64,000 nucleotides of DNA from Notamacropus eugenii (taxonomy: Eukaryota; Chordata; Mammalia; Diprotodontia; Macropodidae). Position numbers and translations under genes: made by a program. The notes below the pieces were generated by a model. The model made no database searches. It was not told the origin of the DNA and saw only the letters and a program-made list of their open reading frames with translations. This document shows, in pieces, positions 2,198 to 49,810 of the stretch; within the stretch, counting starts at the first letter, position 1; the number at the start of each line of letters is the position of its first letter. The stretch is taken from assembly GCF_028372415.1 (NCBI RefSeq), contig NC_092875.1, positions 48,527,271-48,591,270 of the forward strand, written 5' to 3'.

Positions 2198-2393
2198 ACC
2201 CGTGTTCCTACTTCTCAGTTACAAGCTCAAGGGCAAATCCAGGCTCAGACAACTCAGACTGCTCAAGTGGCTCTGGCAAAGCCGCCCGTTGTGTCTGTGC
2301 CAGCAGCTGTTGTATCATCAGCTGGGGTCACAACCCTTCCTATGAATGTTGCTGGGATTAGTGTTGCGATTGGACAGCCACAGAAAACAGCAG
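2198..2393 (+). CDS. EP400: EP400, internal exon (fifth from the 3' end)
   Basis: This exon encodes a Gln/Pro/Val-rich stretch (TRVPTSQLQAQGQ ... VAIGQPQKTA) that I recognise as the C-terminal region of EP400. EP400 is the SWI2/SNF2-type ATPase of the nuclear TIP60/NuA4 complex, which places H2A.Z/H3.3 and supports E1A/MYC-dependent transcription. The acceptor is tgtttag before 2198 and the donor is GTATTT after 2393. Length is 196 nt, so it leaves phase 1, which the next exon takes up. It lies far C-terminal of the ATPase, SANT and poly-Gln parts, which must be upstream of the window. A 732-bp foldback element ends only 102 bp upstream of the exon. Confidence 0.95.
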
Positions 2394-2586
2394 GTATTTC
2401 TCTGGGAATTCTCCCAACAGTAATTTTTGGGAAGTAATCACTTCTCCAGTTTTCACTCAGTTGTTTTTGTTATTGAGAGTAGTTACCAAGTTTGTAGGAT
2501 ATTGAAAAAAATATTTTTATTGGTTGTATTGTGTCAATGTGAAGTTTTGAAATTTTAGTGAGTATAATTATTCATAATGATCTCAT

Positions 2587-2840
2587 TTGAGAGGCAACAT
2601 CGCATAATGGATAGAGGGATAGGTCTTGGAGTCGTTGTCTGCCAAAAGGCAGGACCTGGGTTCAGGTCCTACCTCTTGACACATACTAGCTGTGTGATCC
2701 TGGGTAAGTCACTTAACCTCTTTATACTTCAGGCAACTCCCTAAGACTTAAGTTATAGATGAATTAGTGATCCACATTGGTAGAAAGTATTTCCACATGT
2801 GGAGTTCCCTTCACTGATGAAATAACAGGTCTAAACCAGG
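2587..2840 (+). repeat. MAR1/WSINE-like CORE-SINE
   Basis: Typical marsupial SINE. It has a tRNA-like head (gcataatggatagag), the CORE segment (tagctgtgtgatcctgggtaagtc), then the family-specific tail (ccacattggtagaaag ... gagttccctt). It lies between the 2198 and 3142 EP400 exons. Confidence 0.8.
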
Positions 2841-3141
2841 ACCTACAAAAAAGTGTTGGTCCAGCAATCAGATAATTGGACACAAGAAGACTGGAACTTC
2901 CAGGTTTCAAGTTATTTTTTAAATGTAACGAAAAATGTTAGGGACATATTTTGAACTTAGTTTCCTTATGGTAGCTTTGTAAATCTCTATCAAAAAGATT
3001 AACCCTCAATACAGGTGTAGATCTGTGCTAGCATCCACAGGCTTTTTGTTGCATAGTGTCTATTAAGTGACCCAACAAGTGGAGATACGTTCATCAGGTT
3101 GGTCTGAGATTCATCTTAACAGAGTGTTTGGTGATTTGCAG

Positions 3142-3266
3142 GGCAAACTGTGGTGGCACAACCTGTGCATGTCCAACAGCTTCTGAAGCTCAAGCAGCAA
3201 GCAGTTCAGCAGCAGAAAGCCATCCAGCCCCAGGTGGCTCAGGGTCAGACTCCTGCACCACAGAAG
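3142..3266 (+). CDS. EP400: EP400, internal exon (fourth from the 3' end)
   Basis: 125 nt joined in phase to the previous exon (196+125 = 107 codons). It encodes GQTVVAQPVHVQQLLKLKQQ followed by more Gln-rich residues, matching the conserved EP400 C-terminal tail. Acceptor gatttgcag, donor GTATTT; the exon ends in phase 0. The composition is low-complexity Gln/Val/Ala with no catalytic motif, as expected for this scaffold-like tail. Confidence 0.95.
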
Positions 3267-4009
3267 GTATTTTGACATATTAGGCTTAGTGTCCTTTGAT
3301 GTTCATCTAGAGCAACACTTCTTAAACTGCATTTCTGAGGCATTTCTGGCAGCATCATTGTGTTGCATCACGCAGCTTCATGGCAGCCTTGGTTTGGGAC
3401 ACAAAGCGCATGCACTTTGCACTGCACATGCCATCTGGCCACAAAATGCCAAGGAATGCTGCTGAAACGCAAAAGGGTCACAAGTGGAAAAAGGTTAAGA
3501 AACCCTGATCTGGAGAGCACCAGTTCTTTTCTCCTTTTTATCCTTATCCTTAATCATAGGGTTCATACCTAGGGCTACAACCAAGTGAGGTTATTTTGAG
3601 TGTCATTCACATAGACTATACATTTAGTGGCTACTCCCCGAAATTTAAAAAAAAAAAATTTCTTTTATTTTTTCAAAAAGCTTTTCCAGGTCTGAAAAGT
3701 CTTTACATATAGATCAGACAGGCAGTAGGCTACCTGTGATCTTTCAAGTATCAGCCAAGCTATGCTGGGGGTGGGGCGGGGCTCATCACTAGGTGAAATA
3801 AATGTTAATGAATTTTTTTTGTGATCGGAGATGGTGGAAAGAATTACTTACATTGATGAAGTCATAGATACTTGAAATGAGAAGTAATCTAAAAATGATA
3901 TTCCCTTCAAAGTTAATTTTTAATTTAAATTGGCTGGTCACTGTAGCTGGTAAGTTTTTTTAAATCAGAACTTAATTAGCATCATTTAGAATCATGTCTT
4001 TCTTCCTAG

Positions 4010-4156
4010 ATAACTGCACAACAGATAACTGCCCAAGGCCAACAACAGAAAGTAACCTATGCCACCCAGCCAGCCATTAAAACCCAGTTTCTTACTACAC
4101 CCATTTCCCAGGCTCAGAAATTAGCAGGGACCCAGCAAGTGCAGACCCAGATACAA
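4010..4156 (+). CDS. EP400: EP400, internal exon (third from the 3' end)
   Basis: 147 nt = 49 codons, phase 0 to 0. It starts ITAQQITAQG and includes the family-typical TQFLTTPISQAQKLAG. Acceptor ttcttcctag, donor GTGAGT. Skipping it would keep the frame, so it could be a cassette exon, though nothing here shows that it is. Confidence 0.95.
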
Positions 4157-4482
4157 GTGAGTATTTATTAGCAGGCTTGGTGCAGTGGTTAATCTGTATC
4201 TGTTTTCCTGTTAACTGTATGTGAGTCTCCAAAGCAGTCATTTTGGATATATGTACAATCTGCAAAAATGGGAAGTTTGTAATAGAGTTCTTTTCAACTT
4301 TAGGTTATAGTGGAATAATCAACAGTTGGTAAGGATTCACATTGCAAGGAAATCTTATAAATTAGACTTTGGTGGGAGTAATCATATTTGTGCAAAAATA
4401 ATGCAGGATGAAGGAAAGGATACTGGTTAGTGGATACAATGTACCTGAATTTCTTGTAATCAGATTTTTTTTTTTGTTGAAG

Positions 4483-4560
4483 GTTGCAAAGCTTCCTCAA
4501 GTAGTCCAACAGCAAACAGCTGTGGCCAGTATTCAGCAGGTGGCCTCTGCTTCTCAGCAG
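4483..4560 (+). CDS. EP400: EP400, internal exon (penultimate)
   Basis: 78 nt = 26 codons, phase 0 to 0 (VAKLPQVVQQQTAVASIQQV ...). The acceptor follows a T12 tract (ttgttgaag) and the donor is GTAAGA. The sequence is close to the mammalian EP400 tail, where this segment is nearly invariant. Confidence 0.95.
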
Positions 4561-5404
4561 GTAAGATTGGAAAACAGCTTGATAATATTAAGAACACATG
4601 GCATTTTTTGGTGTGTATGTACCGTTAGACTTACTTTCAGTCCTTTTTATGAAGTCCAGAATAATCTTTGTTCTGTTACATGGTCATCTTTTTTTGGCTC
4701 CTCATGAAAATGGAGTTTTAACCAAAAAAAGAGTCCATGTTTTCTGTACTCAGTTAGCTCGTTGACCTCACCAGTGTGGGTATTCTCTCCAGGGATGCAG
4801 ATTGCCACCCATTTGTGCCTGCTCATCCTGTTCACTCAGTGAGCAGATAGCCTTCCTCCTTTCCTCTTGATGTGGCCAGGATGCCAGTGGAGCATACAGG
4901 TTGCCCCTTGGTTATCCTTCTCCCCCATCACAGGAGTGGCCCAGTTTCTTTCTTACACATACGTTTCTTTGATGACATCCTTTCCACCATTTCTCCATCA
5001 TGGCTTCCATGTGCTCTGTTGCAGGCTGCTCGCCCCTGCTGGGGCCTTCCATTGCCTTTGGGGTGAACCTCAACTCCGTGACTGACAGCTGTGCCACAGT
5101 ATCTATTTACAAAACAATCTCTGACAAAAATTGTCATACCGCTCTTATGATTAAGTCCTAGCACAGACGCAGGCAAGCAAAAGCATCTTAAACTTTGCAG
5201 AAGTAGACCATGTGTTCATTTCCTGGATGAGGTCTTTCTTCATCTTTTCTCAAGGACATAAAGTCTTGACAATATGTATTCTTTTATTTTACTGTAGTGT
5301 TATAGAATGGCAGTTATAGCCATTCAGACTACCTGGGGATTATATAAAATCAGGGATTTTGTTTTTTCCTCATTTACATATCGCTGGAAGCTGAAGGCCT
5401 CACT

Positions 5405-5560
5405 TTAAATGAATTCATTAACAAAAATTTATTAATCATCTACTATGTGCAAGACCCTGTACTAGGTTCTAGAGATTTAAAGACAAAATTGGAAGACTCC
5501 CTGCCCCTAAGGAACTAATGTCTTACTGGAGAAGGGGGTGGAGGAAATAGAAAACATGTA
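5405..5560 (+). repeat. MIR3/L2-type 3' CORE retroposon
   Basis: Contains the 'tttattaatcatctactatgtgcaag' type motif and the 'ctgcccctaaggaactaatg' block that recur at 17.6, 24.8, 33.87 and 34.4 kb. Confidence 0.65.
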
Positions 5561-5599
5561 CAGCTTTAATTTGTCAATTTTATGGTTTCATCAATTCAT

Positions 5600-5815
5600 A
5601 CATGGAGCAGCCAGGGTGGCACAGTCTAAAGGACATAGGGTTGGAAGTCACTGGACCTTGGGAAGACATTCCCAGCCCTGCCACTTCCTCCCTGTGTAGC
5701 CTTAGACAAGACTTTCCCCACTCTGGGACTCAGTTTCCTCATATGCACCATGAAGGGGTTGGACTGCTGAAGGGATGCCTGAGGCTCCCTTTCACCTCTA
5801 CATCTAGGAACTAAG
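5600..5815 (+). repeat. MIR-family SINE
   Basis: CORE-SINE with a head (ggcacagtctaaagg), CORE (cctgtgtagccttagacaag) and MIR 3' end (ctcagtttcctcatatgc). It lies in the last EP400 intron. Confidence 0.65.
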
Positions 5816-5951
5816 AGTTTTCAAAGAAGCTCCTCATTTAGTTCTCTCTCCCAGAGGCCCTAGCCACACCCTTTTTTTGTTTCTGTTGTAGCATTTTCAT
5901 AACATATGTGAGATTTTTCAGTTAGCTTGTCTTTTCTTTTCTCTGGGCTAG

Positions 5952-6218
5952 GCGTCACCACAGACCGTGACACTCTCTCAAGCAACAACTGCAGGTCAGC
6001 AGGTCCAAATGATCCCTGCAGTGACTGCAACAGCTCAGGTGGTTCAGCAGAAACTCCTCCAACAGCAGGTGGTGACAACAGCCTCCACGCAGCTTCAGGC
6101 CCCAGGTGTACCCAACCCCGCCCAGGGGCCAGCCAGCTCTGATGGCCAGAGTCAGCAGGCTAAGTTACAGATGAGAATGTCGACTGTCAGGTTAAAGACA
6201 GCTAACAAGCCTAGTTGA
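5952..6218 (+). CDS. EP400: EP400, terminal coding exon with stop
   Basis: 88 codons plus TGA, beginning ASPQTVTLSQATTAGQQVQM and ending in the basic tail RLKTANKPS, the expected EP400 C-terminus. Acceptor gggctag before 5952. Together the five exons give 270 C-terminal residues without frameshift or internal stop, so the gene looks functional. The ATPase, SANT and poly-Gln regions lie 5' of the window. Confidence 0.95.
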   Translation, partial: ASPQTVTLSQATTAGQQVQMIPAVTATAQVVQQKLLQQQVVTTASTQLQAPGVPNPAQGPASSDGQSQQAKLQMRMSTVRLKTANKPS

Positions 6219-7725
6219 GCCAAGCATGGGAAAAGCGGGGATCTTTGTTTTCTTTGGTCAAGCTCCAGCTGCAAAATAGGCACACCCTTTCTATTTCCTG
6301 GTCTTAAGGCAGACAACCACTGTCTTCATAGAGGACATTTTATTTATTTCTGAACCTTGGAAACATTCTCACACCAAAACACACGACCTTTGGAAAATTC
6401 TTGTCAAAACCAAGTAGTGTAATTATTTTATTAAAGTGTATCCTTCTCTTACAGAAAAGTGATCCTTCCTGAAAGCCTCTCTGTACTGTATAACTAATGG
6501 AAACAGTGACCATGGTGATCAGTACTTTCCTTCTTCATTCATGGCAGTGTTTTCTCCAGAGCACTAGTACTGGGTTTTGATAGCCACTTAGTAGAATTCC
6601 TTTGTAGTAATACAACATTTTGCACATTACATTTGTGCTAATTGGTTTGTGCAGTGAGTCATAAAATGGAAAGTCTTTTTAAAACTTAAAAAAAATTCTA
6701 GATAAAGACTTTAACTTAATTCTTTCACCTTATCCAGAAAAGACAAACCATGGTCCTTTTAGTAGAGGGAACAGCTAGAGTCAGTCACCTATAATTGAGT
6801 TTTCATTCCAAAGAGTAGCCATTGTGTTCTGTGCTTTCTAAAAGTGATTTGTTTTCATACTTTTAAAGGAAATGTTTGGTAATGCTATTCATCTAAGCAC
6901 ATTCTAGGTGCATTCCCTGTATTTTGTCTATTGGCTTGTTTTAACATGCATTGGGCTGCTTCAGATTGTTGGGACTCTGATGTCTTGGACTAGTTAGAGA
7001 TAAAGTGCCACAGAAGCGTCATAGGCACCACCTGTTTTATTGCTGTATAATCTATGGTGACCTTAGTCTCAATGTACGTAGAGTGAGAGTAAGACGGAGA
7101 TACAAGAGTAGGGAAGGCAAGAACATTCTGAGGTCCAAGCTTCGGGGGAGCTGAGAAACATTATATATACATATATCTATATGTATGTAGATGGAGCATC
7201 TGAGGGTCCAGAAATAGACCAAGTGATCTATGTATTGTAAATGTGTACAAATTTTTAATACATTGAAAAAAATATGCTAGTCTTATCAAGCAGGATGTTC
7301 TGGGTAGTCACTGCATTTTCGCTTTCCAGGGTCTCTACTTGAGCAAATCTTGGTTCAGCCTAGTAAAGGTGAGAACCGTAACCATCTACTATTTGTGGAG
7401 CTGTATGATATTGAAGGAGAAAAAGGGAAGATTCCTGTTGCAGGTTTTTCTGTTGATGTTGTTTGTTTTAAATAAGGGAAGGCAGTGGATGGAATGTTAA
7501 GTGGCAATGCTGGTTGATGATGGCATCTTACGTACATTATCTTTTGCCATATTTTTAGTATGCAAAAGGAAAAAGCCTAAATAGTACCTTTTCTCCATGG
7601 GTATATTTTGCTCATTTATGTCCAGGGAAGGGTAAGGCTATACTGGGTTTTTTTTCTTTAACAAATGCCAGTTATGTCTTATAGCATTCAAAACAAAACT
7701 TTTACTGAAAAATCTATTTTTCCTG

Positions 7726-7733
7726 TGTAAATA
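7726..7733 (+). promoter_or_regulatory. Candidate Pumilio response element
   Basis: Perfect TGTAAATA in the EP400 3' UTR; a second copy is at 9047-9054. These match the known PUM1/2 consensus. Function here is inferred only from the motif. Confidence 0.35.
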
Positions 7734-9190
7734 CAGTGTTTTTCCTTTAAGTTTCCTTGTTTTAAGTAAATTTGTCAAAGAAGTTCATCCACTTTGTAAT
7801 TTTAAAAAACTAGCATCCTGCAGGTTTATTTGGACTTAAACACTTTGCTAGCTCTAAGTAAATAGGTAGAAAGATAGTAAAGATAATATGTTTAAGGATC
7901 ATAAAACTGAAGTTGTTTGAAAAAGAATGGAGTACTAAAACAACTCACTACTTTTATGAGATTTCATAATTTGTTAAAAGTTTTGATTTTCAAGTGAATT
8001 GTTCACATAGAAATACTTAAAAGTGAAAACATCACATGTGCATGCTGCTTTTCAGTATGACAGTTTCACATATTACAAATATTCTAAACTTGCAGAATTA
8101 AAATGTATAGGAATTCTCCAAACCTATTTCCATTTGCCCACCTTGATAGTTTTTCTTTAGATCTTCAGAGTGAACCTTTTAAAATGATGATAGAATTTGA
8201 ATGCATTTATTTTAGAAATGCTCAAGAATTCTCAAAAGGTAATTAATTAATTGTTTAAATAAAAACCCCCTGTAATCCTATAGCAGTCTGGGTAGACAAC
8301 TTAGAGCCAACTGCAGAAAAAAGTTTTAAAAGTTTAAATACTGGTGTTTTTATAATTGCTGTATGTAATTCTTGTCCCTGTCACTAATGGTGAAAAGGAA
8401 TCTAGTCTCCATATTCTTGGCAAGGAGATTTTAGTTAAACTTCAGTAATCCTAATAATACATAAATTGAATTGATGAGCTCAATGGACTACACCAAGAGT
8501 GTACATATTTAAGACTACAGCATTTAAAAGGTTACTCTTGCCTAAGTAGTGTTCCACACAGTCGTTTGAGCGCTGGCACTTCATCCCCAGTGTTCCATAG
8601 CTTCAGGTTCGAAAGGCCAAGCTTTCTGTTTTTAAGAAGATAATGAAGTTTGGTTCAGCGAAGTTGTCTAGGAAGTTTCAGACTAGTACTGTTAGCAAAA
8701 TTCTGTATTACCATGCAAATCAGGCTTCTCTTATTGCGCTATAATGATTCAAGGGTGTATTTATTCAGGAACACAGCAGCAAAACTGCTGTGAGAGCTTA
8801 CTTTGGCCACCATTGAAACCAGCTACCCAGTTATTCTCTAAGAGATATTGTTTTCATTCAGGTCAGATAGTGTTGTAAAACGTTCAGTGGGGAAGCACAT
8901 TGCCTGCGTCCAAGTGCTGTTCAGATGTTGTGCCTCAAGGGGGAACGGTTTTTCTTTTAATAAATAAAAATGCTGGCTTAAAAAACAAACAACACTGTAA
9001 CCCGGATAGCTGTTGTGTTTTAAAACATACAGGAACAAGTTGAAATTGTAAATACTTTGTAAACATAAACATTTGTACTTGAATAGTAGGATTTTAAAGA
9101 GCACTGACATCCTACCAGATAAAAGGTATAATAAAGTGTCCTTTTTTATAAATCTTTGTTTTGTTTTTCCTAGCACAGTATTTTAGTGAT

Positions 9191-9196
9191 AATAAA
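9191..9196 (+). terminator. EP400: Probable EP400 poly(A) signal
   Basis: This is the last AATAAA of the cluster, with T/G-rich sequence some 60-90 nt downstream. A second AATAAA at 9130 is the alternative. An upstream AATAAA near 8960 could give a shorter 3' UTR. Confidence 0.6.
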
Positions 9197-10257
9197 ACAC
9201 TAAGTCTTCATTATTTGTCTGCAAAATAAGCTGCCTTCTCACATGATTTAGACAGAGGGTCAGTCTTCTCTTGTTGCAAATTCATGCTCCTGGGTCTAGA
9301 GGGGAAGAACTGGAGATTTTTTTCTGTAAATGCTCTTGGTGACAAGGAGAGGAGAAGTCTGTCAGGGTGTCAGGCAGCACTTTGGTTTAGAAAGCTGAGT
9401 CTTGTGCTGAAAGCTTGGGGCAGTCCTTCTGAACTGGGGAATGGGAGGCGCCGGTTTATTTTCAGTGGTAATGGTTCATTTAATTGTGTGGCCTGGTGGT
9501 AAATCACCTTCTCAGCTTGGTCATCTCATCATGGGGATAGTGTATGTTTATATGGAGCCCAGTGCCATCCTCATTGCCAGCCATCACCACCACCACCATC
9601 ATCTTCATCATCTCGTCACCCTCATGGCAGCTGACATTCACACTTGGACACGCACGGTCCCATGTGAGAGCCCCCCTCGCAGTCCTACGCCCGTAGCCTG
9701 GTTAACTAGCAGAGGAAAGGCACCGGGGCCACCGAGGCAAACCAGGAGTCCTAGACTCGGGAAGCTCACATTCTGCTGGGTGGGGCAGGGGCAGAAGGGA
9801 CCACGGGGTCACAGACTCAGCCAGTTCACCCAGGGTACACCCTCTTGCAGATGGGTTAACTGAGGCAACACTGACACACACGGCTGGGTCAACAGTCATC
9901 GGAAAGGGGAGCGCCAGGAAGGCCGGGGCGAGGAGGGAGGGCATTCTGGGCCGGCAGGGCAGCCACCCCGGGCCTGCGTCCCGTGCCAGGGTTTGGAGGG
10001 GAGGGCTAGACAGCCCCCTTCCGAAGGCTGGTCCTGTTCCAGCTTGGCTGGACGAGGACGTGCAGGAAGGGGCGCCGGGATCCAGGGCCAGGCTGGCAAG
10101 GCTCGGTCTTGTAGTTGTTTCTCGGTTTCCGGACGCCTTCGTCGTTCCCTCCGTCATTCCGTCCGAGGCCCCCGGCCCGGGCTGGGCGCTGACCACCGTG
10201 GGGGGGTGGCCTTCCCTCCTGGCTGGCCCGGGCGGCCCGCGCTCGTGCTGCTCCTCC

Positions 10258-10335
10258 GTCAGACTGTGAGCCCCTCGAGGGCAGGGCCGGCCTGTAGCTC
10301 GCTGTACCGTGCGCTGGGCGCTCAATAAAAGTGGG
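10258..10335 (+). repeat. L2/MIR3-type 3' tail embedded in the CpG island
   Basis: The 'ctgtgagcccctcgagggcaggg' to 'gctgggcgctcaataaa' segment is the L2/MIR3 3' end, made unusually GC-rich. It ends with AATAAA. Confidence 0.6.
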
Positions 10336-10437
10336 TGGTTGGAGCCGCGGGGCAGCCGCGGGGGAGCCGCGGGGCAGCCGCGGGACACCCCGGGACACCC
10401 GCGGGACACCCCGGGACACCCCGGGACACCCGCGGGG
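10335..10437 (+). repeat. GC-rich minisatellite in the promoter island
   Basis: First, AGCCGCGGGG-type units; then five to six 10-11-bp units of CGGGACACCC(C/G). It lies about 0.5 kb upstream of the inferred start site. Confidence 0.8.
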
Positions 10438-10862
10438 CTCCTGCACGACTCAAGGGCAGGCTCTCCACGCAGCAGACCAGGACGCCGGCCCGCAGACGTT
10501 GAGATCCCGCCGCGGGGCGGCTCCCCGCCCGCCTCCCGCGCCCTGCTCCCGCGCACCCCCTCCAGGGTGGGCAGGACGAGGCTCCCGGAGGCCGAGAGCT
10601 CCCGCGTGCGCTCCGAGCGCCGGCGGAGCCCTCCTCTTCTCCCTCCCCCGCCTCCATCCGACGCATGCGCCGTGGGATCTCCCTCGGCCCGGGCACATCC
10701 CGCCGCTGTCCGTCCGGGAGCTCGCTGCGCCTGCGCGGGGAGCTCCCGGTCCGGGCGCCCCGACCGCCGGCCCGCCGCGGGACAGCCGCCGCCTCGCCTC
10801 GCGCCCCGCCCGCGGGGCCGGGTCCTCCCCGGCGCAGCGCGTGCGCAGAGGCGCCGCAGGGC

Positions 10863-10901
10863 CGGGGGCGGGGGTGGGGGGTGGGGGTGGGGGTGGGGCG
10901 G
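10863..10901 (+). promoter_or_regulatory. G-quadruplex-forming tract at the core promoter
   Basis: Seven runs of four to six G separated by single T or C, immediately 5' of the inferred first exon. It fits the G4 consensus easily. A role at this promoter is inferred from position. Confidence 0.7.
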
Positions 10902-10904
10902 TCA

Positions 10905-10978
10905 TTGTGTTGGAGGCGAGGAGGAGGCGGAGGAGGAGGAGGCGCCGCCGCGCCCATGGATCTCCTGTCACGCCGCGG
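10905..10978 (+). other. EP400NL: Predicted 5' exon of the EP400NL gene
   Basis: Purine-rich GGAGGCGAGGAGGAGG leader ending at CCGCGG|GTGAGT. The 5' boundary is approximate. An ATG at 10956 (gcgcccATGG) is open to the donor (MDLLSRR plus two bases). When spliced to the 35205 acceptor it stays in frame, with no stop, through 16 codons to the usual EP400 start at 35230. So either the exon is an untranslated leader or it gives an N-terminally extended protein. The donor is canonical; no transcript evidence is available to me. Confidence 0.55.
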
Positions 10979-11429
10979 GTGAGTGGAGGGCCGGCAGGCG
11001 TGACCGCGGGCCAGCCCCTTCCCCTGCGGGCCTCCGCTTCCTCGGCTGCCCGAGGACTGGCTCGGGCCGGCCGCCCGGCTCGTGGCCCCCTCGAGGCCCG
11101 GGTGCCCACCTCCCCGCCTCGGGCCGGGCATTGCCTGGGGGGGAGCCCCGGGGAGAGGCCCGGGGGAAGCCCTGCCCACGTCGGGGCTGAGCACCAGCGG
11201 CCCGAGGGTGTCCCCACTCTGTGGAGAAGGAGGTTGAGGTGGAGAGGCCCCCCCCCCCCTTCCTTGGAGCCAGGCACGGTGGGAGGGAGGCCCTTGAGGC
11301 CCCGGGCCTGCCCCCGGTGCCCCCTCCACAGCCTGTGACTGACCGTGGCACCCAGGGAGTGAGATGGAGGACAGCTTAGGGTCAGAGTAACCCACAGGAC
11401 AAGCAGAGGCCGAGCCCAGAGGCCCGAGT

Positions 11430-35204: not shown

Positions 35205-36543
35205 AATTTATTTTAAAGAAGAGGTGATAATGCACCATGGCAGTGGTCCTCAGAATGTCCAGCTCCAGAGGTCCAGGTCCTTCACAGGCAGTGAAGGGGA
35301 AGACCAGCTGTCACATTCAAATCTGCCCCAGTCCCCTGCAGCTCCATTTGCTCCTTCAGTAAGCCCATCTGCACCACAGTCTCCCAGTTACCAAATACAG
35401 CAGCTCATGAATAGAAGTCCAGTAGCTGGTCAGAATGTAAACATCACACTTCAGAATGTTGGACCAGTAGTTGGAGGAAACCAGCAGATCACCCTGACCC
35501 CTTTGCCAATCCCCAATCCAACTTCCCCAGGTTTTCAGTTTAATTCTCAGCAAAGAAGGTTTGAGCATGGCTCCCCATCCTACATTCAAGTTACCTCCCC
35601 ATTGCCTCAACAGGTCCAGTCTCAAAGCCCAACCCAGCCCAGCCCTGGACCAGTGCAGGCCTTACAGAGTGTGCGGGCAGGCACTCCTGGTCCTGGACTG
35701 GGTATTTGCAGCTCCAGCCCCACTGGAGGCTTTGTGGATGCTAGTGTCCTTGTGAGACAGATCAGTTTGAGCCCTTCGAATGGCGGACATTTTGTGTATC
35801 AGGAGGGCTCAGGCATTGCCCAGATTGCTCAGGGAGGACAGGTTCAACTCCAGCACACGGGGCCCCCTATTACCGTTCGAGAACGCAGACTTTCACAGCC
35901 CCACACCCAGACAGGCGGCACCATTCATCATCTTGGACCCCAGAGCCCCGTCGCTAGTGGTGCCAGTATGCAGCCTTTGACTAGCTCCAGTCATATTGCA
36001 ACGACCAGCTTGCCACCCCAGATCAGTAGTATTATTCAAGGACAGCTGATTCAGCAGCAGCAAGTACTTCAAGGACAGCAGTTGAACAGACCTATGGGGT
36101 TTGAGAGGCCTTCAGGCGTCTTCATATCTGGAGTTGGAGGCTCTTCAGCCTTTGGGATGACTTCACCACCCCCTGGACCCACCAGCCCTTCTAGAGCTGC
36201 TGTGCCACAGGGTCTTTCCAGCCTTCCTCTTGCTCCTGCAGGAAGTATGGGAGTGAAAAAAGTACCTAAAAAATTGGAGGAAATTCCACCAGCATCTCAA
36301 GAAACAGCTCAAATGAGAAAGCAATGCTTAGATCATCATTACAGAGAGATGGAGGCTCTGAAAGAAAACTTTAAGGAGTATTTGATTGAATTATTTTTCT
36401 TGCAACATCTTCAAGGGAATATGATGGATTTCTTAGCTTTTAAGAAGAAACTGTATGGACCCTTACATACATATCTGAAACAAAATGATTTGGATTTTGA
36501 AGAAGAGGAGGAGGAGGAGAAATCTGAGGTTATCAATGATGAG
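35205..36543 (+). CDS. EP400NL: EP400NL, first main coding exon (EP400-like N-terminus)
   Basis: The acceptor is gtttag|AATTTA. The family start ATG is 35230 ([11 protein letters not shown]), and 438 codons run to the GTAAGA donor at 36544. The protein is Pro/Gln/Ser-rich and matches the N-terminus of EP400 throughout: [75 protein letters not shown], then an acidic EEEEEEE run. This N-terminal block precedes the HSA and ATPase modules of EP400. Position and orientation, directly downstream of the end of EP400, match human EP400NL/EP400P1. It could instead be a second full EP400 copy, since the window ends before that can be tested. I recall a report of human EP400NL as a coactivator linked to MYC-driven transcription; that is knowledge, not seen here. 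Confidence 0.9.
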
Positions 36544-38268: not shown

Positions 38269-38270
38269 GC

Positions 38271-39604: not shown

Positions 39605-39905
39605 AGGGCTCTAGATTTGGGGTGGAGGGGAGAAACTTTACGATCATCTCATCCAACTCTTTCCCCACCCAACCTCTCCCTCTGTTTTGCAGGTGGGAAA
39701 ACTGAGACAAGAAAGGCTTTACAATCCTAGGAAAATCAGTTTAGCCTGCAGGGACCTTAAGGGCCATCTTAGTATACAACCCCCTCATTTTTAGATGAGG
39801 CTTGAGAGGGGACATGACTTTCCTGAAGATTAGCTTGGAGTAAGTGGCATAAGGCAAGCCTGACCCCAGGTATTCTGACTCTAGGTCTACAAGCTTCTCC
39901 CTTTG
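39605..39905 (-). repeat. Two antisense MIR fragments
   Basis: 'gcaggtgggaaaactgagac' at about 39690 and 'catttttagatgaggcttgag' at about 39790 are two MIR 3' regions in tandem. Confidence 0.6.
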
Positions 39906-40404: not shown

Positions 40405-40640
40405 GGAAAGCCTTGGGTGACTACAGATACCTGGCCTTGGAGTCAGGCAGACCTGAGTACAAGTCTTTGCCAGTACCAAACATTAATTTTATGAGCCTGG
40501 TCAAATCACCTAAACTTTCAGTTTTCCAGGCAGCCCACTCCTTATTGCAGAACAGTTGTTGATCTACATTGGTAGGTGCAATCTTTCTTCATTCTCTTAC
40601 ACTAGTGAGAACATAGGTTCACTTCTCCCCCCAACATGAA
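40405..40640 (+). repeat. MAR1-like CORE-SINE
   Basis: 'ggagtcaggcagacctgag', 'gagcctggtcaaatcacc', 'ggcagcccactccttattg', 'gttgatctacattggtagg'. Confidence 0.65.
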
Positions 40641-40699
40641 ACTAATCCTGGGAATGGTAGTGATTAGCAACCATTAATATCTTAGATGAATTATCAGAG

Positions 40700-41635
40700 A
40701 CTTAGCTTGTGTGTCAGAGAATGAGAAAGGAGTGCACATTTTTAACTTCATAAGTTGATTTTTAAAAAAGGACTCCAAGTCTTTTTTATTTTCTTGGAGT
40801 ATTATTTTCTACTAGGATAATGGTACATTTTGAATTGTGGTTTATAGTAATCACATTGATTTTGGGAGTTACTTGCTGAATCAATCCGATTTTCTTTCCG
40901 GTTCATTTCAATCATCTTTGTTTTTTTCCCTCTGACTTCCAAGCTGTATCTGGACTCTTGATGTAAAATACTATTTAACTTTAGAGCGGTTTGATATAAA
41001 TTTACTGACTACTAGATTTGAATAGGTTCACTGAGGGAAGTGGTTTATTTCTCCTGGAAGATTTTTCATTAGCTTAACTACTGAAAGCTTTTTTTTTTAA
41101 GTTCTTTTACAAACCTGAAAGCAGTGTGTAAATGTTAGCAACTATTATGACTGATTTTATCCTGTGATGAAATGAAATCATAACATGTCACTGTTACCTT
41201 CTTTGTTTGTCTTCTGTATAGTTGTTGTTTTTCCTTCCTTTTCCTGTTTTAAGCACTTGCAAACCCCAAGACCTCCTTCCCTCTGGGGAAAGTCGATCGC
41301 TTTAGGATCCAAGTTTTAGGATCCAGGGTAGTCAAATGCTGGGTTTGTCTCTTGTCAATGTTCAGGTTCTTCTTGGTAAAGACCATCCTGAGAAACTGTT
41401 GTCTGCTAGGTGAGAACGAAATGTTACCAGCCTGAACTGAATTTCAGATCTGCGAGATCAGTGACCGGCGCTTAAAGTAAATTCTGTTGGAATAGGAGTA
41501 TCCTCTGGTGAAGACTGAATTATGTCCCCTCTTCACTGAGGTTCCACCAGTTTAGCAGGCAGTGGTTGTAAAGTTTTGATCAACTTAAAAATTGTTTTCC
41601 CTTTTCCCCCTTTCCCTCCAAATATCTTCTCTCAG
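40700..41635. other. EP400NL intron 2, 3' part
   Basis: No repeat or gene recognised; AT-rich, ending in a strong polypyrimidine tract before the exon. Confidence 0.4.
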
Positions 41636-41743
41636 GTAAAGGTTGTGACAGGAAAGGATGGGCAGACTGGGACTCCCGTTGCTATTGCAACCCAGCTTCC
41701 TCCAAATGTTTCTGCTGCTTTTGCGTCCCAGCAGCCATTTCAG
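41636..41743 (+). CDS. EP400NL: EP400NL, second coding exon (cassette-like)
   Basis: 108 nt = 36 codons, phase 0 to 0, encoding [20 protein letters not shown] and ending QQPFQ. Acceptor ttctctcag, donor GTACTT. In EP400 the corresponding segment is absent from some isoforms, as I recall. An exon divisible by three, with 5.1 and 3.5 kb introns on either side, fits the same alternative use here. Confidence 0.88.
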
Positions 41744-41759
41744 GTACTTTTCGATGGTT

Positions 41760-42720
41760 CTAAAATGTAGTCTCATCCCAGATTTTAGATTCATCTAGAT
41801 TTGGTATTTCCTAGCATTCCGTGGTTTTCCAAGAACCTCTAATAACCTTATTATTAACCAAGTACATATGTTTGAAAGTTTTTTTAAGCTTCAGAATTTT
41901 AATGCATTATTATTTTTTCTTTTCTCTGAAAAGTGAGGAAATGACATGATTCTCCTTTTGGATTTGGGGCTTGCGTTGAGTGTTTTGTTGTTGTTGCTGT
42001 GATTTCTTGATGCCTTTGGTTCTTTTACGCTTTTTTGTGCATTTGTAGTTTGTCTTGAATGTAAATGCAAATTTTGTTGGCTTTGGGAAACATACTTTTT
42101 AAAAGCGAAATGTTTCTTATAAATTCTCTTCTTTCCTGGAACAAGTTCTTTTAATAGTTGTATTTATAAATATTTGACCTTTTTATTCCAAGAACAGAAA
42201 ATGAAGTGTTAGAAATAAAATAAGCTCAGTAATTATTTTCCTATACATTTTTCTTAGTGTTTCATAGAAGAAGAGGAATATGTTCTTACTGAATTCTCAG
42301 GGAACAATTTCAGAATTTTAAAAAATTGTTTAAGGTTCTTTGTTATATATAATTGTTGCCTGTGATGACTTTGTATTTTAAGTTTACATCATTGATTCAG
42401 GAAAATGCTTTCCCTCTTGTCCTAGGACTAAATTTACATACTTGTCCCATTTCCTGCCTTGTTGGTCCTGTGTTTTACATATAAAAGAATTTTTTACTGT
42501 TCAGCTTTCGAAGGGCTTACTAAGTACAACAGACAGAGTGGGATCATCCCATTCCCAAAACAGCATATTTGTGTTTAAGCAGGCAGACTTACTTATATTT
42601 TTGTACATTCCGTATTTGTTCCTTGCCTCAGGAGAATACATGCTTCTTGAGGTCTGCAGTTATTTTCTTTTTGTTTGTATCCCTGGCACTTAGCACTGTG
42701 CATTGCATGTAGCAGGCCTC
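41760..42720. other. EP400NL intron 3, no recognised feature
   Basis: AT-rich. A run of GTTGTTGTTGCTG lies near 41985. Confidence 0.4.
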
Positions 42721-42724
42721 AGTA

Positions 42725-43330
42725 AGTAAATGTTTGTTGAATTGAATGAAGCCCTTTTCATGGCTCTCTACTATCTATGAAATAAAATTCAGACTCTTTT
42801 AGTTTAGCATTCAATTCAAAGTTCACAACCTGGTTGGTCTCACAACCTTTCTTTCCATCGTTATTCCTACTCTTCTTGTGTATAATTTTTGGGCTCCACC
42901 AAAACGATTTATTTTGCTCAGAACATTTAATTCATTCAAAAAGCATTTATTAAGCACCTTACGTGTATGTGTCAGGCACGGTGCTTCACAGCCTGTACTT
43001 TTTGGCCTCTCAAGTTTTGCTTCTTCCATTACCCACTTTGGAATGCCTTTCCCACTCCTCTCCACTTAAATAAAAATTTTCCCATCCTTGATATATGTGT
43101 TCAAACCTTACTTCCTTTGTAAAACCTTCCCTTGTTACTCTTAGAGTGATCAACTAATGAGATCTTCCCTTTGTCTACCCTAAGAAACAGTTGTCACACC
43201 TGAGGATACCACCTGTCATACCATCTTAGTGTTGCTTCCTTTCCTGTCCTGATTGTCCTTCCCCACCACAAAGTTCTGAGCCTTACTCCCAGATGTGCTG
43301 CTTTTGTAACCTAAATAGCATGAGTGATAC
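42725..43330 (+). repeat. L2 3' fragment with MIR3 insertion
   Basis: L2 sense segments ('catggctctctactatctatg', 'cttactccc') flank a MIR3 piece at about 42925-42985 ('aaaagcatttattaagcacc'). Confidence 0.6.
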
Positions 43331-44069
43331 CTAAAAGCAGCTCAGTGGATTCAAAAAGATCCTTTTGATACATTATTATAGATCTCTTCAGCTTCATTCC
43401 TAGGGTCTAGGGTCTTACTGTGATGTACAGTTATTGGAAGAAGTCCAGAGTCGAGGACAGGCGTAGGCAAGGCTAAAGTAATGGGAATGGACAGTGAGTT
43501 AGTGAGAACAGTACTGAAATGACTGGTTGTGGAATACAGAATAAGGAGATAGTCAGGTGATAAGTACCAGAGTCCTGGGAGTGGCAGCAACCCCCCCTCC
43601 CCCCAAGCACACTTGTCCTGATTTCAGCCCCACCATCACCACCAGCAATAACTACTGCTGACCAGGGGCCACCAACAGGCCCAGGAAGTGGGAGCAACTC
43701 TTGACCACTTGTCTTGCTTACAGTCTGTCTCTCACAGCAATCATTTGGGAAGGGGATCCTTTGGAAGGGGGTTGCTAGTCATCCCCACCAACTGTCAGCC
43801 ATCTGCCGCTCATGGGACGGAAGGGCCAGCCTAGCTGAAGCAGTGAGGCCTCTTCAGAGAGGAGCAGGAAGTAGCATGTTCCAGGCAAATAAAACTATCA
43901 CACCTTGGCCACCATCTCCTCTCATGGAGGCATCCCAGACCCTGACCCCAAGAGCCTTGGGCAGAGTGCTGCTTCTAGCCCAGTGTCCCAACCATCATGC
44001 TGGGGAGCAGCCCCTGTGGAGGGGCAGCCTGGCAACTGACTGCTGAAGTGGGCACCACAGCCACTACTC

Positions 44070-44275
44070 CTAAAGGACCCCAAAAGAAAGTTCTTGTCAC
44101 CAAAGTCCTTCAGCATCAGACATGGATAGGATTTTATCAGTGGGAATAACATTAAAGAAGCGCATTACTTTCTGCTTTGCTTCTGCACCCTAATCACAAC
44201 AGTGCTGAGAATGTACAGCCAAGTCAGGGTTTCAGGGTAGCAGCCAGTTCACCCCAAGGAATGCAGCAATAACAG
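44070..44275 (+). pseudogene. Y-box protein (YBX-type) processed pseudogene fragment
   Basis: From 44084 the frame reads KKVLVTKVL, the residues that open the cold-shock domain of Y-box proteins. A deletion replaces the RNP-1 region. After a 1-bp shift the sequence resumes as GFI..NNIKE, where the family has GFINRNDTKE. A later block near 44245 resembles the cold-shock-domain exit (ccagttca ... atgcagcaa). Frameshifts and deletions show it is dead. No introns are seen, so it is probably a processed copy. The Pro-rich sequence before it (about 43.6-44.05 kb) may be its N-terminal part, but I cannot show that. Confidence 0.45.
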
Positions 44276-44448
44276 ATGAAATTGCTTCAATATATGGCTT
44301 CTAACATATGCTAGCTTCTAGCATAAAGACCTTGCCTTTAAAAAAATATTTGGACAACTGCTTCAATATAATTGATATCCTTTTTAATCCTATTTTTATG
44401 CATTTATAAACATGATTCTCAGAAGGGGTCCATAGGTTTGATTCATCA

Positions 44449-44532
44449 TGCTGCCCAAGGACAAGAGAGAAAGAGGGGAGGAAAAGACAAGGAAAAAAGG
44501 GGAAGAAGGGAGAAAAAGAACGAGAGAGAGAC
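44449..44532 (+). repeat. Purine-rich low-complexity tract
   Basis: A/G-rich run (gagagaaagaggggagg, then similar) of about 85 bp. Confidence 0.8.
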
Positions 44533-44599
44533 ATTCTGATTTGGGTTGGGTCCTTGTTCCAAGTGGAGCCTTAAAAAATAATCAAAAAAAAAATCATGC

Positions 44600-45198
44600 T
44601 TGGGAAACTTGTAAAGCTGGCACCTGTATATTATACACCCAGGATACTTTAGGGTTTCATGAGGACCATGCTGGTTCCACAGAGTTTACTTAAGCTTCCT
44701 TCTGACTTGTGTCATGGAGTTACATTGTGCTTGCCCCCTTCTGCTTAATGATTTGGAGGGTAAGGAGCATTTTTCAGCTGAGCAGATATAATCGCTTTTC
44801 CCAGGAGCACTGAACCCACTCTTAGTTTTGACATACAGATAGTTTCACCAATGAATCAATCCTCATTCATTCATACATTTGATGTCACAATATGAGTCTG
44901 GATATGACATGCCCTAGATGGAGCTTTTGGAGAACAATTCTGCTTTCTCTTCAGCCAATGAAAGACATGTTGGAAAAGCTTATCAGCCTTGCTTATTTTC
45001 TTTTGCTAATTAAGAACCAAGGGGGAGTTTCTTTTGTTTAGGACTTCATTATGATCAGCAGGTACCTTGTGCTCATAATGCCTTTTTGGTTTTGGTCATA
45101 GGAACTATCCGAATTAGTGGAGAGATTCATTATTTAAGTTCAGTGTCATATCAATTAAACGCATACTAAAACTTATAACATTTTTTGTTTTTTAATAG
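44600..45198. other. EP400NL intron 3, 3' part
   Basis: Nothing recognised. It ends in ttttttgttttttaatag before the next exon. Confidence 0.4.
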
Positions 45199-45286
45199 CC
45201 AATGCACACAGATTCGCCAGTAGCTGGAACTGTGACGACTTTAGAAATGGAAACATTTAAGAGACAACAGACAATGACCCAAGAAG
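45199..45286 (+). CDS. EP400NL: EP400NL, third coding exon
   Basis: 88 nt, phase 0 to 1: PMHTDSPVAGTVTTLEMETF then KRQQTMTQE. It aligns with the EP400 segment ending ETDLFKRQQAM. Acceptor tttttaatag, donor GTATGG. Confidence 0.88.
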
Positions 45287-45680
45287 GTATGGAACATTGA
45301 GCTAATGTGCATTTTTTATAAACTTGCAAGATGTCAATAAAGTAGAATTAAACAACTTTTCCTTTTTAAATCATCCAGCACTTATCTTCTCAGAACTTTG
45401 CTAGTCATAGTTTCAAGTCTCTGTTTGAGTCATTATGAAATCTGATTGTTGTGAATGAAATGGTATAACATCTGTTAGAGGTAATATAATTCCTGATGAA
45501 TAATTTTGGTTACTGAAAGTACATGCTGACATTGAAATACACTCTCCTGGGTTTGCAGCATGTGTTCTATGAAATTGTGATATTGTGAACTTATGTTAAA
45601 AACATTATAATACATTTTACTTTGTAAAAATGAACCTGCAACTCTCATATGGTGCCACTCATAGAATTTAAATATTGTAG

Positions 45681-45779
45681 ATTCACCCAAGAGACCTCGG
45701 ATTGATGTGGGTTGTCACTTTCAGTATCCAGCTGTGACTTCAGGAGTCCCTCTTCAGCAATTAATGCCAACAGCACAAG
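45681..45779 (+). CDS. EP400NL: EP400NL, fourth coding exon
   Basis: 99 nt, phase 1 to 1. It encodes SPKRPRIDVGCHFQYPAV, then GVPLQQLMPTAQ; the last part is identical to the EP400 family motif. KRPR may be a small basic nuclear-localisation patch. Acceptor attgtag, donor GTATTC. The intron before it is only 394 bp. Confidence 0.9.
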
Positions 45780-46504
45780 GTATTCTGCCACCAAAGGCCA
45801 CATACATATTTTTCTGCCTAGAGAGTTTGGTGTGGGTGAGTCTAGGAATCTAATTTGGATTTCTAGTTGACTACAGATTCTTATGTATAAGTACTTAGCA
45901 TGTTATATCTGTAGAGTTGGGTGGTGGGCTTTCGAGGTATATGTACAGACTTGGAAATAGTAACAAGTGCTAATTTCAGTCCAGAGTTAGTGAATAGCAT
46001 GGAAACTTTGAAGGATAAGTCACGAATGTGCCTGGCACATGATGGGAGCTGAAGGAATTATAGTTGACTGACTGACTTATCGATTGGAAATGTCTCCTGA
46101 TCTTATATATTAATGCCAATTTCCTATATATATCTTAAATTTTTCAGATGTAATAAATGCAAAGTTTTTTTCTCTACAAATTTCTTTAAAAAATCTAGAT
46201 GCATTGATTTTGCTCATGAAATCTTTTCCAAATGTTATGTAATCACAATTGTCTGATTTGTCTTTTGTGATGATCTCTATTCATTGTTTAGTTCTGCTAC
46301 CCCAGTTTGTGAACAGTATCTTCTGTTGTTTCTAATATTTTAATTATTTAGCTATTTATATTTAGTTTGAATACTCATTTGGAGCTTATTGTAGCAGTAC
46401 ATGTTGTAAGACCACTTCTGCCCACCTGCTTTTTTAGCTTTTCCAATAGTTCTCATCAAACAAGTTCCTCCCCTCGTATTTATATAGGCTTATTTCACAC
46501 TAGG

Positions 46505-46970
46505 TGTGGCAGCAAGGACCCGGCGTGCACAGGAGGGCCTGCTGTACAGGTTCTTAGATCTGCTTTCTAAAAGGAAAGCAACCTTGGAGGGGTCAACAAT
46601 CTACTTTAATCAAGAACATGTATTATTCACTTAGTTTAGGGGAAAAAGTCAGCACCCTGAACTTCAGAGACAATACAGACAGAGAAATAAAGACCCTAAG
46701 CAATATGTAAGTCATAGATCAACAGACAGATCCAGTTGTCCATTACATACACACGTAGTTACCAGAGAGAGAACACCAACATCTGGGTTTTCAAAGCCAA
46801 GGAGGCTCCTTAAGGGCTACCCACAGTATCGTCTGACCAGACAACACTTCCAGTGAGTAGGGCGCCAAAACAAAACCTCACCTCAGAATATATATACACT
46901 TTTCAGAGCCAGAGGGCTCTGACAAGCAATAAGAATACATAGATTCCTGGTGGAATTCTGTAATGGACCA
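46505..46970. mobile_element. LTR-like unit of an endogenous retrovirus
   Basis: TG...CA-bounded block starting TGTGGCAGCAAGG. Its composition and phrases are like marsupial ERV LTRs. No clear target-site duplication and no internal coding region. Boundaries and orientation are tentative. Confidence 0.4.
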
Positions 46971-47109
46971 TTAAACAAATAATTTGTGAATACTTAGAAA
47001 AGACAGAGGTTAGTGACCTTAATTTTAGCAAAATGTTTGGTAAATTCAAATTTTGTAGGTAAGGTGGAGAACTGGGTGATGATTAGGTAGGTGCATTGGC
47101 ATCAGGGTG

Positions 47110-47890
47110 AACCAACCATGAGTACCGATTAATGGAGGTAAGTTTTTGGAGGCTCTGTTCTTGTCTCCTGTTCTGTTTAACATTTTCCTTAATGTTGATG
47201 AAAATATAGAAAGAATATTTATTAATTAATTTGCATATGACACAAAGCTGGTAGGAATAACTAAGACCTTAAATAAGAAAATGAAGATTCAGAAAGACTT
47301 CAACAGGATGGAATAATAGGCCCAAGTTAACAAGATAAAATTGAACAGAGATAAGTATAAAGTCTTACACTTGGATTCAAAGAATCAATTTCACAAAAAT
47401 TGAGAAGTTATGATTTAGCAATTCATTTGGAAAAAGATCTGAGTATTTTCATTTCATTGGCAGAAACCTATTATGAGCCAACATTACTGTAGCTGCTAAA
47501 AAAAAAAAGCTAATGAAACTATGAACTGCACTAAGATAACTATAGTGTTTATTTCAAGAAAGATAATAGTTCCACTGTATTTAGCATAATAATTTATAGT
47601 ACTAAGCATCACATTTTAAGAAACATTAAAAAATCATTGTGTCCTCAGAGGAGGTCAGTGAACAGGTTGGTGAGAGGTTTAGAAAAACCAGGTCACGCAG
47701 AATGATTGAACGAACTAGGCATGTTTAGCCATAAAAAAGGAAGAGGGAGAAACTGGTAGTTTTTGTGTTGGTATAAATTTATAAGAAAGCAGATTTTGTT
47801 TCAGTATGAGAGGTTCAGTAACATTATAAAACAATATTTTGTAAGATAATGAGCTTCCCATCACTGGAAGTATCTAATCAGAGTCTGTAA
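47110..47890 (+). mobile_element. CR1/L3-type LINE 3' fragment
   Basis: Degenerate end of the reverse transcriptase ('cctgttctgtttaacattttc', 'gacacaaagctggtaggaat') followed by the CR1/L3 3' region ('ccactgtatttagc', 'cacattttaagaaacatt', 'gaggaggtcagtgaacagg'). Confidence 0.6.
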
Positions 47891-47906
47891 ATTACTGCAT
47901 AATTAT

Positions 47907-47962
47907 AGGGTGTTCCAAAGGTCTTAGTGCAGGTTCCTGCCCTAAGACCTTTGGAACACCCT
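47907..47962. mobile_element. 56-nt mariner-type MITE hairpin
   Basis: The two 27-nt arms AGGGTGTTCCAAAGG... and their inverse match at 26 of 27 positions and are separated by only two bases (TT). TA dinucleotides flank both ends, as for Tc1/mariner insertions, and the arm resembles mariner inverted repeats. The transcript would be a miRNA-precursor-like hairpin. Confidence 0.8.
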
Positions 47963-47999
47963 GTATAACCTATTCAGTATTTCAAAAGACTTGTGGTTT

Positions 48000-48550
48000 C
48001 ATCACTATGAATATTTCTTCCAGCAATGCAGATTGCAGCCCCCTAAATGCTTCTTCAGTAGACAATTTTGTGACTTTACTGTAGCAGAAGAATTGATTGC
48101 TTAGCTAATTTTCTGATGTTGGGCTTCTCCACAATTAGCTTGGTTGATCCCCAGATAGCAAACACAGAGTTTGATGCCAGATCCATACTTGAGAACATTC
48201 CTGTTTGGGAGCACCTAGGACAGCTTGTGCTCCATTTTCATAGCTTCTGAACATCACAGGCGTCACCTCCATCCCCCAGTGGGGCGCCTGACTCAGGTCA
48301 AAAGATTTGGAGATATCAGCATTGTTGTTGTTCCGACACTATGCTGGAGTTTGGAAGCCCTAAGGTTCTTCTCCATCTCTAAAATTCTAATGGTTTAGGG
48401 TGAAGTTTGGAATTCAAAAAAAAATTAAGCAGTCGTAGGAAATAAATTAAATAATGTGTAAGGTAAAATGTAAAAATCAACTACTTTTAAAAATCACTCA
48501 CTGAAAGAACTGAGCAGTAAGACTTGCATTGTTTGTCCTGATATTCATAG
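48000..48550. other. EP400NL intron 5, no recognised feature
   Basis: No coding or RNA gene seen. A MIR fragment in antisense follows at about 48555-48650 ('cttcagagctagaagggat', 'ttacagatgaggaaatgac'). Confidence 0.4.
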
Positions 48551-48791
48551 TTAATTGTTCATAGACTTCAGAGCTAGAAGGGATTTTAGAGGCCACTTAG
48601 GCCAACCGTTTTACAGATGAGGAAATGACTTGCTCATGTAATACAGTTTTGACAGGTTTTCCAAAGTGGTGTAATACACTGTATTAAAATCTTTAAGTAT
48701 TTCCTCTTTCCTGCTTAATATTTTCTCAGATGAATTTCTCGTTAAATTTGGGCATTTTAAAATTGCTATTTGGTTTCTTGTGGTTTTGCAG

Positions 48792-49195
48792 GCGGAATGC
48801 CTCCCACTCCTCAGGCTGTACAGCTCACTGGACAGAAACCAAACCAACAGCAGTATGATCCATCCAAAGGTCCTCCTGTGCAGAATGCTGCAAGTCTCCA
48901 TACTCCTCCACCTCAGCTTCCTGGGAGACTGCAGCCTGCCAGTGTCCCAGCCACATCCCTCCCATCAACCCTGCAAATCTCACAGCAGCCCCAGCAGCAG
49001 ATGGTGGAGGCTCAGCCCCAACCCCAGCCCCCAATTCTGGTGAAGACCCAGCCACCCAATGTACCCATCCCTGCCACTCTAGCCAGCCAGCCTCCAGCAT
49101 CCCTTCCACAGCCTCTTATGCCAGCACTGCATGTCCAGATGCAAGGGCAGCCAGCTGCTCAAGTCTCTCAGTCTCAGGCTAAAGTACAACAGCAG
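48792..49195 (+). CDS. EP400NL: EP400NL, fifth coding exon
   Basis: 404 nt, phase 1 to 0. It begins GGMPPTPQAVQLTGQK and includes QQQYDPSKGPPVQNAASLHT, a motif I know from this position of EP400. Then follow Pro/Gln-rich, low-complexity sequence and KVQQQ at the end. Acceptor gttttgcag, donor GTATTC. The Gln/Pro bias is higher than in the preceding exons. Confidence 0.92.
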
Positions 49196-49513
49196 GTATT
49201 CAGTGATTTTGTTTTTGCTACATCAAGTTATAGTCTGATTATAAAATGTTTACTTCAAGTGGGGGTTCTAAGTTCATGTGCCACATAAATGATCATCTGT
49301 GTGTATTTTTTGTGTTCACCTGCAAAGGAGCAGAACTTTTTGGTCCTTTTTTTGGGTACTTTTAACTATGAACGTTTTTTTGAAATTAAATTGTTGGATT
49401 TATAATTTGAGAGTGCTTGGTCTGCAACTTCTACTGGGATGTAAATGTTAAAATGTTTTCTGATTTCCATAATGTTTCTTATGTTCATGAGTAACACAAT
49501 ATTTCCTGGACAG

Positions 49514-49810
49514 ACTGTTTCACCGATGAGACCATCTGCAGATCTTGCCCAGGCTTCTCAGCATCTTCCCGCAGATTCTCTGCTTCCCTCATCTCTTCCA
49601 CCATCAGCACCTTCAGGGACAGCGCCGCCCTCTGTGTATCCTTTGCAGCCAATCAGAACTTCCCCAGAGACCAAACCCTCATCCCCTGTTGTACCCGAGC
49701 CCCCAGGTTTAGCTGTAGCTGCAGCACCGACAACTCAAACTCCAGCCCAGAACGCAGCAGGCCTGCCTCCAGAGAGTTCCCAGGACAAACTTGCTGAGCA
49801 AATGAAACTG
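49514..49810 (+). CDS. EP400NL: EP400NL, sixth coding exon (last visible)
   Basis: 297 nt = 99 codons, phase 0 to 0: TVSPMRPSADLAQ ... TPQ-like Pro/Ser/Ala-rich sequence, ending ESSQDKLAEQMKL, which aligns with the EP400 residues just before the HSA-domain region. Acceptor tggacag, donor GTAAGG. Without splicing, the frame would continue only 10 residues (stop at 49841-49843). The next family exon was not found before 64000. Confidence 0.9.

Follow-up and report, generated by a model that had tools for sequence, protein, structure and literature searches.

At the EP400 locus of Notamacropus eugenii, EP400 is followed by the start of a second, probably complete p400 gene

Locus and gene models

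A contiguous window of 64,000 nucleotides (nt) from the marsupial Notamacropus eugenii (NC_092875.1), containing no N, was analyzed for its p400 genes. Human EP400 (p400) is the ATPase of the TIP60/p400 complex, and to our knowledge mammals are generally taken to have a single copy of this ATPase. The plus strand of the window carries, in this order, the C-terminal exons of EP400 (gene 1, 2198-6218), a CpG island, and six coding exons of a p400 N-terminus (gene 2, 35230-49810). The head-to-tail order on one strand, with a poly(A) region and then a CpG island between the genes, is as described in the original prediction for this DNA.

Gene 1 is represented by five plus-strand coding exons, identified by translation and match to EP400, at 2198..2393 (TRVPTSQL...QKTA; 98% to platypus EP400 over 66 amino acids (aa)), 3142..3266, 4010..4156 (96% to platypus EP400 over 51 aa), 4483..4560, and 5952..6218, the last including the stop codon. 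Together they encode 270 aa plus the stop and were aligned to human EP400 2888-3156, with an identity of 85.2% to human EP400 (270 positions), 90.5% to platypus EP400 (242 positions), and 63-65% to four proteins annotated as p400-like. In the C-terminal tree (14 rows, 279 columns; built without Anolis, whose row lacks the anchor motif, and without Vombatus, whose protein ends before the C-terminus), gene 1 formed a clade with human and platypus EP400 (support 100/99), and its union with the p400-like proteins was rejected in the approximately unbiased (AU) test (p 3e-4). By alignment and tree, gene 1 is EP400. Its probable 3' untranslated region spans 6219..9215 (+), as judged from poly(A) signals (AATAAA at 9130 and 9191, among several in the region). 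The CpG island at 10001..11250 (500-base windows with GC 0.72-0.81 and CpG observed/expected 0.76-0.91) is the presumed promoter of gene 2, for which a putative non-coding exon 1 was read from the sequence alone at 10900..10978 (+; start approximate, donor after 10978). A further AATAAA at 10324, within the island, we take to be part of a tail resembling a short interspersed element (gagggcaggg...gctcaataaa; 10250-10330) and not a gene end.

The coding exons of gene 2, all on the plus strand, are exon 2 (35205..36543, coding from the ATG at 35230, 438 codons), exon 3 (41636..41743, 36 codons), exon 4 (45199..45286), exon 5 (45681..45779), exon 6 (48792..49195), and exon 7 (49514..49810). Exon 2 gives a tree at odds with those of the other regions (see below). 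Spliced in phase, the six exons give 770 codons without a stop, as originally read, with GT at all six donors and AG at the five acceptors of exons 3-7 and at the exon 2 acceptor ending at 35204; the two alternative frames of the exon 2 coding part contain 20 and 19 stops. The protein was aligned to human EP400 1-776, and its EP400_N domain covers profile positions 1-490 of 490 (PF15790, E 2e-243). The 36-codon exon 3 is placed as in human EP400, whose isoform 2 (3123 versus 3159 residues, 36 fewer) departs from the alignment at the exon 3 junction. At the joint of exons 4 and 5, gene 2 reads DSPKRPR, as in p400-like proteins, where human and platypus EP400 read EQSKRPRLEVGH. In the relatives, the HSA region starts right after the residues of gene 2 exon 7, and the HSA exon lies outside the window.

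Relatives of gene 2

Relatives were searched with a long query and scored on residues 1-770 (871 matches, best 120 listed). The best matches over the 770 residues were the proteins named 'E1A-binding protein p400-like' in the database, from Vombatus (91%), Sminthopsis (90%), Gracilinanus (89%), and Trichosurus (85%); gene 2 is the same paralogue. These proteins are long (Vombatus 2599 aa, isoform X7; Sminthopsis 3092; Gracilinanus 3046; Trichosurus 2986), and precomputed domains place EP400_N, HSA, SNF2, and helicase-C in all four, the same set as in human EP400. On rescanning, HSA, SNF2, and Helicase_C exceeded the cut-off in Sminthopsis P0102 and in a lemur p400-like protein (Eulemur P0212, 2898 aa). 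From helicase-C on, 544 residues of the Trichosurus protein could be aligned over their full length to human EP400 1891-2436, and QEWCDRIGRCKDIHIYRLVSGNS is identical in the two; this stretch presumably includes the SANT-type region. The HSA-ATPase part differs at 38 columns between all five p400-like rows and human plus platypus EP400. Among these is E1117D beside Walker A. The Walker A motif is DDAGLGKT in every one of the five p400-like rows, and human, platypus, and all 11 sauropsid rows have DEAGLGKT.

The exons 3-7 tree was first built from 20 of 25 rows, without the EP400NL of human, Callithrix, and Chlorocebus and without Chrysochloris and elephant, and later from 18 of 25 (335 columns), with Microcebus and Equus asinus also excluded as reading into unlike sequence. 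Gene 2 fell inside the marsupial p400-like clade (100/99), and its union with EP400 of placentals and platypus was rejected (p 4e-23), which upholds the earlier separation of the two genes. On these trees gene 2 is an EP400 paralogue distinct from EP400, here called EP400L. A misassembly or false duplication, in which gene 2 would be the N-terminus of a single EP400 set after its own C-terminus, could draw on exon 2, which makes up 438 of the 770 codons and strongly resembles the EP400 of other mammals, and on the lack of a marsupial among the EP400 N-termini compared. Against it stand the window free of N, the rejected union in exons 3-7, the p400-like proteins of gene 2 type in four other marsupials, and the position of EP400NL after EP400 in the available part of a human gene list (PMC10137620), and we regard it as very improbable.

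Since the marsupial orthologues are long (2599-3092 aa) and contain ATPase and helicase domains, gene 2 probably represents the start of an EP400 copy that is complete, not a partial gene of the EP400NL type; the 'partial duplication' and the EP400NL label of the original prediction are thus probably wrong. A truncated gene coding for an N-terminal fragment only, as in human, was also considered. No further p400 exon was found in the 14.2 kb at 49811-64000 (tblastn, six p400 proteins of 2599-3117 aa, E up to 1e-3), and the human (P0040, 430 aa) and Chlorocebus (P0034, 708 aa) forms are indeed short (search range 423-1347 aa). However, the closest relatives of gene 2 (85-91% over 770 residues) are themselves 2599-3092 aa long, and an exon-free gap is compatible with a repeat-rich intron; 49811-64000 contains L1-type open reading frames. 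Truncation is considered unlikely, though less so than misassembly.

A search with the lemur ATPase part (candidates of 1594-5071 aa) yielded 1427 matches, and among the best 120 of these no placental p400-like protein besides that of Eulemur was present. The sauropsid 'p400-like' protein of Harpia grouped with birds in the HSA-ATPase tree; the trees leave aside the proteins of that name from Mauremys, Pangshura, Strigops, and Patagioenas, as well as a short turtle protein, 'EP400-like' P0046. No copy was assigned to horse P0019/P0022 or Chrysochloris P0029. An assignment of Monodelphis P0001 to EP400 was dropped, as it shows 19 aligned differences plus gaps relative to the Gracilinanus p400-like protein.

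Age of the duplication

In the HSA-ATPase tree (19 rows, 669 columns), the mammals (99/98) fell into two clades, one of platypus plus human EP400 (100/100) and one made up of all five p400-like rows (99/98). AU tests rejected a therian-only duplication (p 4e-7), platypus with the p400-like rows (p 2e-6), and human EP400 with the lemur p400-like protein (p 6e-6). The exons 3-7 tree recovered EP400 (100/99) and p400-like (89/87) clades and likewise rejected a therian-only duplication (p 4e-5). On the evidence of three regions (HSA-ATPase, exons 3-7, and the C-terminus), the duplication is older than the monotreme-therian split, and hence older than the marsupial-placental split; the original prediction had placed it before the latter, which is consistent with the trees, but dated it too young. 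The C-terminal tree does not settle how the two mammalian groups branch relative to the sauropsids. Of the 38 diagnostic HSA-ATPase columns, the second copy keeps the state common to all sauropsid rows at 17 and EP400 at 7; of the two, it may therefore be EP400 that has changed more.

Exon 2

The tree of exon 2 gave a different grouping. Thirteen placental rows (EP400, lemur p400-like, and EP400NL together) formed one clade (100/99), and the six marsupial rows of the second copy (copy B), gene 2 included, formed another (99/99); here, as in exons 3-7, gene 2 lies in a marsupial clade, which fits the marsupial host that had been proposed from the sequence. In the later tree (22 of 25 rows; without Callithrix, Equus asinus, and Chrysochloris), the copy-B clade found in other regions was rejected (p 6e-4), as was a copy-B clade including human and Chlorocebus EP400NL (p 1e-5). 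Within residues 121-400, human EP400NL and human EP400 agree at 268 of the 271 positions that align, compared with 25 of 50 in 1-80, 60 of 74 in 401-480, and no aligned position in 81-120. From this species-wise grouping, in conflict with three other regions and a mark of gene conversion, we infer repeated conversion between the tandem neighbours in exon 2; this reading is at the protein level, with marsupial EP400 exon 2 outside the comparison. Because conversion appears to disturb the phylogeny of exon 2 in other species, likeness in this exon is a weak guide to orthology.

Separate recent duplications in marsupials and primates would also sort the copies by clade, as the exon 2 trees do. 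However, the HSA-ATPase part unites lemur and marsupial p400-like proteins against EP400, exons 3-7 reject the lemur p400-like protein with placental EP400 (p 0.001), and exon 2 alone deviates, compatible with conversion. We regard independent duplication as very improbable, the least credible of the explanations considered.

The end of exon 2 reads LYGPL in five of eight copy-B rows (window, Vombatus, Sminthopsis, Eulemur, and Microcebus), and the motif was dropped as a marker of every copy-B protein. Among the marsupials, the window, Vombatus, and Sminthopsis have LYGPLH, whereas Gracilinanus, Trichosurus, and Monodelphis share HYAPLQAYL with placental EP400.

EP400NL of primates

Human EP400NL/EP400P1 (Q6ZTU2, 'putative EP400-like protein') resembles gene 2 in its listing after EP400: the human gene list has the order PUS1, EP400, SNORA49, EP400NL, DDX51, with no strand given (PMC10137620). 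It differs in having EP400_N as its sole domain in the accessible text of PMC7320927 and in an exon 2 middle nearly identical to that of EP400. The same text reports EP400P1 peptides from melanoma metastases, and the 22-residue peptide given there is contained in both P0040 ('unnamed protein product [Homo sapiens]') and Chlorocebus P0084 ('HSA domain-containing protein'), to which the EP400NL label was assigned here.

LYGPL is present in five of the seven EP400NL-type rows with HFEVINDE (missing from P0018 and P0038), and is also missing from Callithrix P0095 and Chrysochloris P0029. KVVA in exon 3 is shared by EP400NL and the lemur p400-like protein, but not by marsupials. Chlorocebus P0084 has IEFQEKQK, with three copy-B residues, among which Q900 is not the sauropsid state. 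By eye, Chlorocebus P0034 contains stretches resembling the p400 C-terminus after its HSA part, as expected for a shrunken whole gene. As the long marsupial orthologue contains both ATPase and helicase domains, the most plausible reading of EP400NL is a decayed relic of EP400L, shortened by secondary truncation, although the HSA tree leans the other way (see below).

Interpretation

Taken together, the window very likely spans the point where two copies of EP400, the products of an old whole-gene tandem duplication, meet. Gene 1 is EP400, and gene 2 would be the beginning of a second p400 remodeller that is probably complete. Several points weigh against this reading. The window holds 770 codons of gene 2, and we infer its completeness in N. 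eugenii; the Vombatus protein (isoform X7) has no C-terminal part. With the EP400 N-termini all non-marsupial, gene 2 versus its own neighbour lay outside the comparison, and conversion in N. eugenii itself is an extrapolation. The groups for the AU tests were picked after the first trees had been inspected. An origin before the amniote split was rejected weakly (p 0.024; 13 rows, 2574 columns, alignment without exon 2, human, and Vombatus). Platypus P0171, an EP400, was the only monotreme protein among the listed matches, and an age before monotremes therefore calls for a loss or an unannotated copy in that lineage. Human, on a long branch (0.32), is the sole placental EP400 in the HSA-ATPase tree. 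For Chlorocebus EP400NL, the HSA tree (125 columns) leans toward EP400 (74/97) and does not reject copy B (p 0.225). In the lemur ATPase-part search, sauropsid EP400 (71-78%) ranked similarly to marsupial p400-like proteins (75-77%), which would be compatible with a slowly changing copy B. Finally, the C-terminal tree shows the copy-B C-terminus evolving faster than that of EP400. The place of gene 2 directly 3' of EP400 on the same strand was read in N. eugenii alone among marsupials.

Path lengths from the duplication in the HSA-ATPase tree (summed branches) were 0.18-0.19 for marsupial p400-like (4 rows) and 0.30 for Eulemur, against 0.19 for platypus and 0.45 for human EP400. On these lengths, the catalytic part of the marsupial p400-like proteins appears about as constrained as EP400. 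In neutral stop-gain simulations (300 runs each; substitutions alone, without indels), 35 amino-acid changes gave a mean of 2.1 stops with 13% of runs stop-free, and 70 changes gave a mean of 4.1 with 2% stop-free; the intact frame thus lends mild support to the constraint suggested in the original prediction, for which the evidence is indirect.

Several functional and evolutionary steps belong to the main reading. The CpG island at about 10.9 kb would drive transcription of EP400L. HSA domains bind actin/ARP4, and that of EP400L would do the same. Since the relatives conserve HSA and the ATPase, and the SANT-type region aligns with human EP400, EP400L may provide TIP60/p400-type complexes with an alternative ATPase. 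The neighbours would exchange exon 2 sequence through gene conversion, and most placentals would have lost the catalytic part of EP400L, so that primates have the short EP400NL (EP400P1). A fuller scenario is advanced tentatively, at a little under even chances. The mammalian ancestor would have acquired two complete tandem p400 remodellers, both still used by marsupials as distinct ATPase subunits, with conversion keeping the N-terminal exon of the two alike; in some primates, the EP400NL stump left after loss of the catalytic part would act as an N-terminal regulator of TIP60/p400 complexes.

If a second complete EP400 in marsupials is real, the composition of the p400 complex varies among mammalian lineages. 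Human EP400NL, filed as the pseudogene EP400P1 although peptides are reported in the accessible part of PMC7320927, would gain a history as the relic of a whole paralogue, not of a partial duplication. The locus would also be a case of gene conversion acting over very long times in one exon but not in three other regions. No report of a second long mammalian EP400 gene was found in the literature searched (titles and abstract openings, with subscription papers mostly outside), and what is likely to be new is the identification of a second, probably complete EP400 gene, together with the likely origin of EP400NL.

Other elements in the window

An Rfam scan of the window, with a hosted small nucleolar RNA such as SNORA49 in mind, gave no matches at the gathering threshold. 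An EP400 intron contains a long inverted repeat at 1363-2096, with arms at 1450-1627/1833-2010 (178 nt, 93%) and 1363-1454/2005-2096 (92 nt, 91%) and 205 nt separating the inner arms; its structure suggests a palindromic DNA element. Within intron 1 of gene 2, an open frame of 153 codons encodes an Integrase_H2C2 zinc finger (25812-26270, minus strand; PF17921, E 2e-9) and may be what is left of a gypsy-type retroelement or else a domesticated integrase. A minus-strand frame at 14622-14984 containing YLDFRKAFDK had no Pfam match up to E 0.01 and is, to our eye, reminiscent of a CR1/L2-type reverse transcriptase. On the minus strand downstream of gene 2 exon 7, a 368-codon open frame at 57442-58545 is L1 ORF1p-like (PF02994, E 1e-13; PF17490), and a second L1 ORF1p-like fragment lies at 60995-61369.

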